From the NCBI GenBank assembly GCA_016193395.1, contig JACPSH010000033.1, forward strand, positions 1 through 38,021: 38,021 bases of DNA, read 5' to 3'. The translations under genes were made by a program, and so were the position numbers. The stretch is from Gammaproteobacteria bacterium. Lineage in GTDB: Bacteria; Pseudomonadota; Gammaproteobacteria; Eutrophobiales; Eutrophobiaceae. Each line of letters begins with the position of its first letter. Position 1 is the first letter of the stretch. This document shows positions 2,589 through 32,553 of this stretch, piece by piece. The notes beneath the pieces are model-generated. The model was not told the DNA's origin, ran no database searches, and worked only from the letters and a program-made list of their open reading frames with translations.

Positions 2589-3650
<1,062 letters not shown>

Positions 3651-3671
3651 CCAGACCGGGCCCCGGGGAGG

Positions 3672-3817
3672 CATACAGGGATGTATGGCCATTTTCAAAT
3701 CGCCCAGGCGTTTGGAAAATGAAGGAAAACGAAAATCACACTTTTCGTTTTCTGACCGCCAGGGATGGCGGAAATGCAGAAAATGCAGGAGCAATTTTCT
3801 GCCGTGCTTAGGCAAGC
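3672..3817 (+). promoter_or_regulatory. array of five consecutive hairpins in the mreB-mreC gap
   Basis: Read on the plus strand: CATACA-GGGA-TGTATG (3672-3687, perfect 6-bp stem); a longer bulged stem 3690-3721 (CATTTTC..GGAAAATG outside, CGC-CCAG-GCG inside); a perfect 11-bp stem GAAAACGAAAA / TTTTCGTTTTC (3725-3735 with 3742-3752, 6-nt loop); CCGCCA-GGGA-TGGCGG (3756-3771); and a perfect 9-bp stem GCAGAAAAT / ATTTTCTGC (3776-3784 with 3794-3802). A weak GCTT-AGGC-AAGC follows at 3806-3817. Two of the stems share the loop GGGA. No U-run follows any stem, so these are not simple terminators. They may stabilise or process the transcript, or control mreC translation; the function is unknown. 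Confidence 0.6.
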
Positions 3818-3858
3818 CTGGGAAGGGCTGGTCAAAGCCGAAAACGAGGGGAGCAGCC

Positions 3859-4722
3859 ATCAAAACCTTGTTTCTGAAGAGTCCGTCCGCGGGGATCCGG
3901 TTCTTGCTGTTCGTCGCCGCGTCCCTGGTGCTGATGACGGTGGATCACCGGCAGCATCACCTCGAATCGGTGCGCTCGGTGCTGAGCGTCCTCGTTTATC
4001 CCCTGCAATACCTCGTCAACCTGCCGGTGGCCGGCGGCCACTGGATGTCCGAATCGCTGGTCACCCGCGGCATGCTCATCGACGAGAACGCGCAGTTGCG
4101 CGAGGAGCGCCTGCTGCTGAATTCGAAGCTGCAGAAGTTCGACGTGCTGGAGGAGGAAAACCGGCGCCTGCGGGAACTCCTGGAATCCTCCATGCAGTTG
4201 CGCGAGCGGGTCCTGATCGCGGAACTGCTCGCCGTCGAGCTCGAACCGTTCCGGCGCCAGGTCGTCATCAACAAGGGGAGGCGCGAGGGCGCCTACCACG
4301 GCCAGCCGGTGGTCGATGCGAACGGGGTCATGGGGCAGGTGATCCACGTCGGCCCGTTCTCGAGCACGGTATTGCTGATCACCGATCCTTCCCACGCGCT
4401 TCCGGTCCAGTTGAACCGCAACGGCCTGCGCGCGATCGCGGTCGGCACCGGGCAGGACAATGCGCTGCTGCTTGAACACCTGCCGACGAATGCCGACATC
4501 CAGAAGGGAGACCTCGTGGTCACCTCCGGCCTCGGCCACCGTTTCCCGCGCGGCTACCCGGTCGGGATCGTCAGCGGCATCACGCTCGATCCCGGCGAAC
4601 CCTTTGCCAAAGTCGAAGTCACACCCAGCGCCCATATGGAACAGAGCCGCGAGGTGCTGCTGTTGTGGCCGCATGACCTGGGCGACACGCTCCGCGATGA
4701 GGGGGTCGCGTCCAACCCATGA
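3859..4722 (+). CDS. mreC: rod shape-determining protein MreC, apparent ATC start
   Basis: MreC is the periplasmic, membrane-anchored scaffold that links MreB to PBP2-RodA. From residue 1 here: KTLFLKSPSAGIRFLLFVAA (short cytoplasmic tail then a membrane helix), a coiled coil around ENAQLREERLLLNSKLQKFD and EEENRRLRELLESS, then the two beta domains with RRQVVINKGRREGAYHGQPV, NGVMGQVI, LITDPSHALPVQLNRNG and GDLVVTSGLGHRFPRGYPVG. The family usually begins with Met just before KxxF; here that codon is ATC (3859-3861), preceded by GAGGGGAG five nt upstream. The only in-frame ATG is at 3685 and would add 58 residues unlike MreC; TTG at 3868 is another possibility but is 14 nt from the SD. Overlaps mreD by ATGA. 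Confidence 0.93.
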   Translation: MKTLFLKSPSAGIRFLLFVAASLVLMTVDHRQHHLESVRSVLSVLVYPLQYLVNLPVAGGHWMSESLVTRGMLIDENAQLREERLLLNSKLQKFDVLEEENRRLRELLESSMQLRERVLIAELLAVELEPFRRQVVINKGRREGAYHGQPVVDANGVMGQVIHVGPFSSTVLLITDPSHALPVQLNRNGLRAIAVGTGQDNALLLEHLPTNADIQKGDLVVTSGLGHRFPRGYPVGIVSGITLDPGEPFAKVEVTPSAHMEQSREVLLLWPHDLGDTLRDEGVASNP

Positions 4723-5207
4723 ACGAACGGCGGCACAACGGCGGTTGGGTGATCGCGATGAGCTTTGTCATTGCCTTCATGCTTACCGCAATGCCGCTGC
4801 CGGAATGGGCGGTGAACTGGCGTCCCGCCTGGGTCGCGATGGTGCTGATCTACTGGTGCATGGCGCTGCCGCAGCGGATCGGGATCGGCGTCGCCTGGCT
4901 GCTTGGCCTCGTGCTGGACGTGCAGCAGGGAACGCTGCTCGGCCAGAATGCGCTCGGGCTGGCGCTGCTGGCCTTCATCACGATCCAGACCTACCAGCGC
5001 GTGCGCGTGTTCCCCCTGAAGCAGCAGGCGATCGTGGTCTGCGTCTGTCTGCTGCTGGCGCAGTTCATCAATCTCTGGATCCGCGGCATCATGGGCGTGC
5101 CGCCGCAGCACTGGACCTTCTGGACGCCCGCCTTCACGAGCATGCTGCTCTGGCCCTGGCTGTTCATCATCCTGCGTGACCTGCGCCGCAAGCACCATGT
5201 TTATTAA
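4719..5207 (+). CDS. mreD: rod shape-determining protein MreD
   Basis: MreD is the integral membrane partner of MreC in the elongation complex. The 162-residue protein is almost entirely hydrophobic, with about five membrane segments (IAMSFVIAFMLTAMPLPEWA, WVAMVLIYWCMALP, IGVAWLLGLVLDVQQGTLLG, LLAFITIQTYQ, and a C-terminal LWPWLFIILRDLRRK). The GLVLDVQQGTLLGQNALGLA segment is characteristic of gammaproteobacterial MreD. Its ATG overlaps the mreC stop. The stop codon TAA (5205-5207) is formed by the first bases of an inserted inverted-repeat element. Confidence 0.93.
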   Translation: MNERRHNGGWVIAMSFVIAFMLTAMPLPEWAVNWRPAWVAMVLIYWCMALPQRIGIGVAWLLGLVLDVQQGTLLGQNALGLALLAFITIQTYQRVRVFPLKQQAIVVCVCLLLAQFINLWIRGIMGVPPQHWTFWTPAFTSMLLWPWLFIILRDLRRKHHVY

Positions 5208-5381
5208 CCCGGATAATTCATGAACGGCGCTCCAGTAATCGGACGGGTGGCATCGGGTGCCGTTGTTCGCGCGCAGCGGAAGGGCCCCACTGGGGGAGGG
5301 TTGGATCGAGCACGGACAACGGCACCCGGTGACAGGACCCGTCCGCTCAGTGTCGCATTCGTTCATGAATTATCCGGGTTA
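5205..5381. mobile_element. MITE-like element with 22-bp perfect terminal inverted repeats
   Basis: The ends 5205-5226 and 5360-5381 are perfect inverted repeats beginning TAACCCGGATAATTCATGAA. Inside, the similarity resumes: CGGACGGGT (5240-5248) is inverted at 5337-5345, and CGGGTGCCGTTGT (5254-5266) is inverted at 5316-5328. Total length is 177 bp with no coding capacity. The outermost TA at each end may be a TA target duplication, leaving a 173-bp core starting ACCCGG; this would fit TA-targeting transposases such as the IS630/Tc1 type, but that is inference. No transposase gene is present in the window. It sits between mreD and mrdA. Confidence 0.75.
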
Positions 5382-5424
5382 GCAGGCTGATGCAAAACCC
5401 GGTCTCGCATCAATCTGTTCGAGC
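5380..5424. repeat. degenerate copy of the TGATGC..GCATCA hairpin repeat (copy 1)
   Basis: The sequence TAGCAGGCTGATGCAAAA is identical to the left arm of the copy at 12508-12550. The right arm GCATCAATCTGTTCGAG is a diverged version of that copy's right arm. The conserved stem here is TGATGC (5388-5393) with GCATCA (5407-5412). It abuts the right end of the MITE-like element and shares its terminal TA. Confidence 0.65.
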
Positions 5425-25885: not shown

Positions 25886-26401
25886 ATGTCACGTTTATTC
25901 TTCGCGCTTTGGCCGGATGAGGCAAGCCGTAGCCTCCTGGCCGAGGTTGCCGAAAAGCTCCCTGCCGGCCTCGGCAAGCACGTTCCGGTGCAGAAGCTGC
26001 ACCTGACGCTGGTGTTCCTCGGGCAGGTGGACGACACGGTCCGCGATGGCCTGATCGAAGATGCGAACGCGATCGCCGTGCCGCCGTTTGCGATTGAATT
26101 CACGCATTCCGGCTGGTGGCCGCGGGCCGAAGTGGCCTGGCTTGCGCCGGACCACATCCCGGCGGAACTGCCACCGCTGGTGCAGCGGCTGCAGGATTTA
26201 CCCTGGGCGCGGCAAATCGAGGTGGACCGGCGCCCCTACGCCCCGCATCTCACCGTCGCGCGCAAGGTCAGGCGCCGGCCGCCAGCGCTGCCGTTTCAGC
26301 CGATCCGCTGGGAAATCCGGGAATTCTGCCTGGTCGAATCGACGACCGGGCAGGCCGGATCGGAATACCGGATATTGCGTCGCTGGGCCCTCAAAAGTTG
26401 A
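25886..26401 (+). CDS. thpR: RNA 2',3'-cyclic phosphodiesterase (2H superfamily)
   Basis: ThpR (formerly LigT) opens 2',3'-cyclic phosphates on RNA and can join tRNA half-molecules in vitro. The 171-residue protein has the two tetrapeptide signatures of the 2H family, HLTL in VQKLHLTLVFLGQV and HLTV in PYAPHLTVARKVRR, each in its own half of the fold. The N-terminus RLFFALWPDEASRSLL and the C-terminal REFCLVESTTGQAGSEYRIL are family-like. The stop codon TGA begins the stem of a strong hairpin. The gene lies between pncC and recA. Confidence 0.92.
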   Translation: MSRLFFALWPDEASRSLLAEVAEKLPAGLGKHVPVQKLHLTLVFLGQVDDTVRDGLIEDANAIAVPPFAIEFTHSGWWPRAEVAWLAPDHIPAELPPLVQRLQDLPWARQIEVDRRPYAPHLTVARKVRRRPPALPFQPIRWEIREFCLVESTTGQAGSEYRILRRWALKS

Positions 26402-26432
26402 TGCAAAAGTCCATCCATGGACTTTTGCATCA
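26399..26432. repeat. TGATGCAAAA hairpin repeat (copy 3), likely terminator of thpR
   Basis: TGATGCAAAAGTCCAT (26399-26414) pairs perfectly with ATGGACTTTTGCATCA (26417-26432), a 16-bp uninterrupted palindrome arm with only two bases between. Its outer ten bases are the same as in copy 2 at 12508-12550. The thpR stop codon is its first three bases. The position directly after a gene and before the recA promoter region suggests a terminating or insulating role. Confidence 0.75.
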
Positions 26433-26460
26433 CGTGCTCACCGCGCCGTAAATATTGTGG

Positions 26461-32289: not shown

Positions 32290-32553
32290 ATGTTGATACT
32301 CACACGCAGGATTGGCGAATCGCTGATGATCGGAGATGACGTCAACGTCACGGTGCTCGGAATACGGGGCAACCAGGTCCGCATCGGAGTCAACGCCCCC
32401 AAGGAGATCGCGGTGCACCGGGAAGAGATCTACGAGCGTATCCAGATGGAGAAATCCAAGCAGGGCAAGTCGCAGCGCGCGGAGGATTATTCCAGGGAAG
32501 GTGGTGGTGGTGCCGGACCGGACGATCCTACACTGACCCGGCACGACGACTGA
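32290..32553 (+). CDS. csrA: carbon storage regulator CsrA with extended C-terminus
   Basis: CsrA is a dimeric RNA-binding protein that controls translation and stability of many mRNAs by binding GGA sites. Residues 1-55 are canonical: [40 protein letters not shown] and [13 protein letters not shown], including the RNA-contacting Arg44-equivalent in [10 protein letters not shown]. The protein is 87 residues rather than the usual 60-65; the extra tail is hydrophilic, with a Gly-rich stretch. GGAAAGAAAG precedes the ATG. An upstream in-frame start at 32245 gives no conserved sequence. It is followed by tRNA-Ser. Confidence 0.96.

Follow-up and report, generated by a model that had tools for sequence, protein, structure and literature searches.

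The hairpin array between mreB and mreC of a gammaproteobacterium is very probably an old copy of a non-autonomous IS5-group element

The stretch of gammaproteobacterial DNA analysed here (the window, 38,021 nucleotides) carries a string of hairpins in the gap between mreB and mreC. The array is very probably a non-autonomous IS5-group element (MITE), present as an old copy that no longer moves and that was inserted between the two genes; as part of a MITE insertion, the hairpins arrived with the element. The array is ordinary in kind, being a MITE insertion, and unusual in make-up. The sequence-only reading had proposed an mre-specific device that sets the MreB:MreC ratio; this is not supported, as what lies in the gap is a dispersed MITE that was inserted in this lineage. 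The features of the window are as follows:

2604–3650, plus strand: mreB (PF06723, E 1.5e-146)
3651–3671, plus strand: left end of the MITE, eroded, with terminal repeat and hairpin A unrecognisable (alignment with intact copies)
3672–3677/3682–3687, plus strand: inverted repeat 1, MITE hairpin B (6 bp, loop GGGA, CATACA-GGGA-TGTATG)
3690–3704/3707–3721 (3690–3721 as a whole), plus strand: inverted repeat 2, MITE hairpin C, imperfect in this copy (15 nt, 87%)
3725–3735/3742–3752 (3725–3752 as a whole), plus strand: inverted repeat 3, MITE hairpin D (11 bp, loop TCACAC)
3753–3805, plus strand: nested 51-bp module with two GGA-loop hairpins (3756–3771; 3776–3802), from sequence comparison
3756–3761/3766–3771, plus strand: inverted repeat 4, in the nested module (6 bp, loop GGGA)
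3776–3784/3794–3802, plus strand: inverted repeat 5, in the nested module (9 bp, loop GCAGGAGCA)
3804–3838, plus strand: right-terminal hairpin E, degenerate, with the right terminal repeat eroded (alignment with copies)
3846–3853, plus strand: Shine-Dalgarno-like stretch of mreC, GAGGGGAG, found at the same position in relatives
3859–4722, plus strand: mreC (PF04085), read from the apparent AUC start codon at 3859–3861; N-terminus aligned in 118 loci
4719–5207, plus strand: mreD (PF04093), overlapping the end of mreC
32290–32553, plus strand: csrA (PF02599), the sole CsrA gene found in the genome

Like mreB, mreC and mreD, the gene for PBP2 was verified by Pfam, and the overlap of mreC and mreD (4719–4722) is as first described. 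The hairpins of the gap are real and non-random. All five inverted repeats of the sequence-only reading were recovered at or next to the positions reported for them, 131 nt in total; a sixth, imperfect hairpin at approximately 3804–3838, which had been missed, is part of the same unit. The segment 3651–3870 folds with −84.7 kcal/mol, compared to −66.7 ± 4.7 kcal/mol for 200 dinucleotide shuffles (z −3.85), and none of the 200 shuffles was as low. The array was also correctly judged not to be a terminator: a sense-strand intrinsic terminator (stem followed by a U-run) is absent from the gap, and the sole terminator-like match is the 11-bp hairpin when read on the minus strand.

When compared to its own genome, the gap sequence gave 52 matches, spread over many contigs. 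Intact copies are about 155 bp in length and have no coding capacity. In the aligned copies the unit starts with TAAGGAACCTCTGAACAAGTTCAGAGGTTCC and finishes with GGACTTGTTCAGAGCTTCCTTA, each end being the inverted repeat of the other. The terminal inverted repeats of the intact copies are of IS5 type (GGAACCTCTGAACAAG / TAAGGAACCTCTGA...), and the copies are surrounded by 4-bp YTAR target duplications (TTAG, CTAA and TTAA). With up to three mismatches allowed, the terminal repeat pattern matched 54 times in the genome and once for the reversed control; most matches form facing pairs, which are ∼153, 201–203 or 250 bp apart. These length classes are set apart by one or two inserted copies of a 51-bp module (GACCGCCAGGGATGGCGGAA...GCAG...CTGCC), which was also found alone, in tandem and within two other palindromic repeat families. 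In the intact element, the terminal repeats form one hairpin each (A and E) around the internal hairpins B, C and D; in the window copy, the module places two more hairpins between D and E. The MITE is present in 22 of 58 relatives by DNA search and in 28 of 143 genomes of the class by covariance model, and one genome, G160, holds at least 20 near-identical copies.

Related repeats were observed elsewhere in the same genome. Repeats at four loci (L071, L078–L080) have the internal hairpins C and D of the MITE and other terminal repeats (TTAGCAGGCTGTTGAAAAA), which suggests that cores and ends are exchanged among MITE families. At L017 (G000:C55:81562-81846), the 51-bp module is repeated in tandem and interspersed with short GACCGCC(A/C)GGGAT repeats. 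Within the window, about 180 bp between mreD and the PBP2 gene (5205–5388) are enclosed in a long inverted repeat (AACCCGGATAATTCATGAA...TTCATGAATTATCCGGGTT); the segment 5190–5400 folds as one single long hairpin of −117.6 kcal/mol and looks like a different inserted palindromic element. On the minus strand, positions 26395–26440 form a near-perfect hairpin, GTGATGCAAAAGTCCATGGATGGACTTTTGCATCAA with loop CATGGATG; the same palindrome recurs in this genome as the leading hairpin of a second dispersed hairpin-string repeat.

The window copy is of the one-module form, and its assignment to the MITE was based on the body (3672–3752, ∼90% identical to an intact copy), not on the ends. No match to the terminal repeat pattern was found on the contig of the window by the scan with up to three mismatches. 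As neither recognisable terminal repeats nor a target duplication of its own were found for this copy, the insertion site cannot be placed to the base; with both terminal repeats eroded, the copy is probably immobile. In the relatives, the mreB–mreC gap is mostly 20–90 nt in length and lacks the element, as expected for an empty site. Therefore, the array is a lineage-specific insertion and not a conserved mre feature, and the earlier remark that the arrangement is foreign to other mre operons holds. The comparison contains no second genome of the same genus, so that the choice of insertion over loss elsewhere rests on the wider family. The copy would have landed between mreB and the ribosome-binding site of mreC, leaving the Shine-Dalgarno stretch and the AUC start intact, and would have lost its terminal repeats afterwards.

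A source of mobility is suggested by IS5-group insertion sequences with MITE-type ends, which were found in six other genomes in all (G008, G160, G117, G127, G019 and G058). In G008, a 315-residue transposase with PF01609 and PF05598, the layout of IS5, lies between GGAACCTCTGA(TT/AC)AAGTCCC ends that are separated by 1.15 kb, and has a TTAG duplication, which fits YTAR. Homologues of 48–53% identity with the same ends are present in G160 (five copies), G117, G127, G019 and G058. Judging from the shared ends, an IS5-group transposase would have moved such elements in trans. In the genome of the window itself, neither a PF01609 transposase nor another autonomous partner was detected.

The hairpins of the element are conserved in structure. 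From 37 aligned copies of many genera, unguided RNAalifold recovered hairpins A, B and D. Both sides had changed with pairing kept in 16 of 23 pairs, and the covariation score was 0.44, whereas shuffles gave 0.158 and slid controls no more than 0.126. Compensatory structure, for which the sequence-only reading had proposed to examine related mreB–mreC gaps, is thus strong in the mobile element wherever it is sited, but it is not an mre feature: the related gaps contain no such structure, the outcome that the reading itself had said would count against it.

The loop letters of hairpin B are conserved as well. The loop A-N-GGA is the same in each of the 37 aligned copies, letters change at both N positions of CANGGANG while the stems covary, and 46 of 47 copies fit CANGGA or a near form. 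Eleven genomes outside the alignment contributed 21 further copies, of which 18 have ANGGA and one more has CAGGAUG. The loop of hairpin D is also conserved, though it is not a GGA site, and the nested module supplies the window copy with two further GGA loops. The SELEX consensus of CsrA is given as RUACARGGAUGU (e.g. PMC7652899), and positions 3673–3684 in hairpin B, ATACAGGGATGT (which reads AUACAGGGAUGU), fit it exactly. The A-N-GGA loop of hairpin B is the CsrA/RsmA motif and a plausible predicted site of CsrA binding.

One explanation for these loops is that the element carries CsrA/RsmA-binding hairpins, that CsrA bound to hairpin B and the module alters the stability of the mreB–mreC mRNA or the translation of mreC, and that the copies serve as portable sites or as a CsrA sponge. 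We put it forward tentatively, as a possibility that on balance is doubtful. The A-N-GGA loop is held across copies while stems and N positions change, and the csrA gene of the window codes for a canonical protein. The genome has five exact RTACARGGATGT matches, of which three are inside analysed copies and a fourth adjoins a MITE-like terminal repeat. On the GGA strand, G-U pairs exceed the mirror-image count (89 versus 46 and 40 versus 17); in the three cleanly aligned helices, however, G-U versus A-C is just ∼26 versus 15, and the copies are not independent. Other observations argue against CsrA: copies between tandem genes show no orientation bias (2:2 in the own genome and 5:3 in G160), loop D is likewise conserved without a GGA site, and a second MITE family bears the motif on the strand opposite to that of the module. 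Long GGA-loop hairpins in a 200-kb sample fall largely within such elements, and no enrichment was seen outside them in these 200 kb. A search of Rfam 15 gave nothing above the gathering score and no match to a CsrB, CsrC or Rsm RNA family.

CsrA binding may thus possibly be the reason for the loop of hairpin B, with about the same reserve as for the explanation as a whole. With the element in place, the mreB–mreC mRNA bears ∼200 nt of RNA that is structured and CsrA-site-like, and its stability or coupling may be altered by this. An effect of the window copy on mreC through RNA processing, mRNA stability or CsrA binding is possible; that the array has a real regulatory effect at mreB–mreC we consider unlikely. 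The broadest proposal is rather improbable in our judgment: IS5-derived MITEs in at least 28 sampled gammaproteobacterial genera would spread CsrA-binding hairpins, with insertions like that at mreB–mreC wiring unrelated operons to CsrA or titrating it, and with selection at the RNA level keeping the stems and GGA loops.

The complementarity of the hairpins may also be kept by mutation and not by selection, with template switching during replication restoring palindromes and each genome amplifying its recent master copies. Palindrome correction is a known process, and the MITE copies within one genome are near-identical, as in G160. This process leaves unexplained why A-N-GGA is fixed across genera in which the stems and the adjacent loop positions differ, and we regard it as an unlikely account of the hairpins.

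A dedicated mreBC regulatory element, be it a processing site, a shield of the 3′ end or a translation gate, is more improbable again. Its location in the operon and a stability above that of shuffled sequence speak for it, but the array is missing from all related mreB–mreC gaps examined, and copies of the same sequence are dispersed through the genome, for the most part outside tandem operons; this explanation is already largely refuted. An origin as a REP/BIME cluster that a RAYT (Y1) transposase mobilised is very improbable: the 51-bp module is REP-like in occurring single and in tandem and the genome has one Y1 transposase gene, but that gene is flanked by another repeat (AAATAAATCTGTCCCC) and not by the module, and the main element is marked by terminal repeats of DDE type together with target duplications. 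A RAYT/REP origin was rejected on account of these different flanking repeats. The Y1 gene itself (L091 1255–2180; G000:C22 near 56000) is of RAYT type, lies between AAATAAATCTGTCCCC palindromes and represents a separate REP-like system.

With the array read as a MITE insertion, the conserved control feature at the mreB–mreC junction is, from the alignments, a non-AUG start of mreC, which is a better candidate than the hairpins for setting MreC output. In the alignment of MreC N-termini, ATC (3859–3861) is located at the position of the Escherichia coli ATG, and mreC appears to start at this AUC. At 118 loci with a clear N-terminus, the aligned start is ATT, ATC or ATA in 109 and ATG in two. 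An SD-like stretch precedes 100 of the 109, and in 96 of them no ATG, GTG or TTG occurs from the upstream in-frame stop to the ATT/ATC/ATA codon. Under the same treatment, mreB and mreD start mostly with ATG. Named genomes with such an mreC codon include Methylobacter, Thiocystis, Methylophaga and Thiodiazotropha. Of 89 gammaproteobacterial families sampled evenly, at least 47 have an AUU, AUC or AUA codon at the aligned position and 10 have a standard start, with 32 left unassigned by position; 38 of the 47 lack any standard start codon from the stop to codon 6. The inserted element brings an in-frame ATG at 3685, from which MreC could be extended by 58 residues; this start is considered less likely.

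Taken together, a supposed mre riboregulator gives way to a mobile element of wide distribution, with hairpins that covary as those of a functional RNA do and that keep a loop of CsrA type. If CsrA does bind the element, a global post-transcriptional regulator could acquire new targets directly by transposition. The conserved AUU/AUC/AUA start points to a brake on MreC synthesis in many Gammaproteobacteria, in the form of a start codon disfavoured by IF3, and this would keep MreC below MreB. A search of the open-access literature, which covered few subscription papers, returned no description of this MITE, no link of MITEs or REPs to CsrA and no report of a non-AUG mreC start.

Like known IS5-family MITEs, the element shares its terminal repeats with IS5-group insertion sequences, makes 4-bp YTAR duplications, is ∼155 bp in length, non-coding and present in many copies. 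Different from them, it consists almost entirely of hairpins, in which the stems covary and loop letters are fixed, its ends are hairpins themselves, and it houses a nested 51-bp module common to other MITE families. With REP/BIME palindromes it has in common that it is intergenic, dispersed and palindromic, with a module that is single and in tandem, but its ends are of DDE type and it has no tie to the Y1 transposase of this genome. Compared to CsrA-binding RNAs of the CsrB/RsmZ type, it likewise has a series of hairpins whose loops contain GGA, among them exact matches to the CsrA consensus; it differs in being mobile and intergenic, with several loops that lack GGA, putative binding and no Rfam match above the gathering score. 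The mreC start resembles the AUU start of infC (IF3) in E. coli, an AUU-type codon behind a good SD that is conserved across taxa. Here, however, the gene is mreC, the codon is AUU, AUC or AUA, and no autoregulatory link is known; E. coli mreC itself uses AUG.
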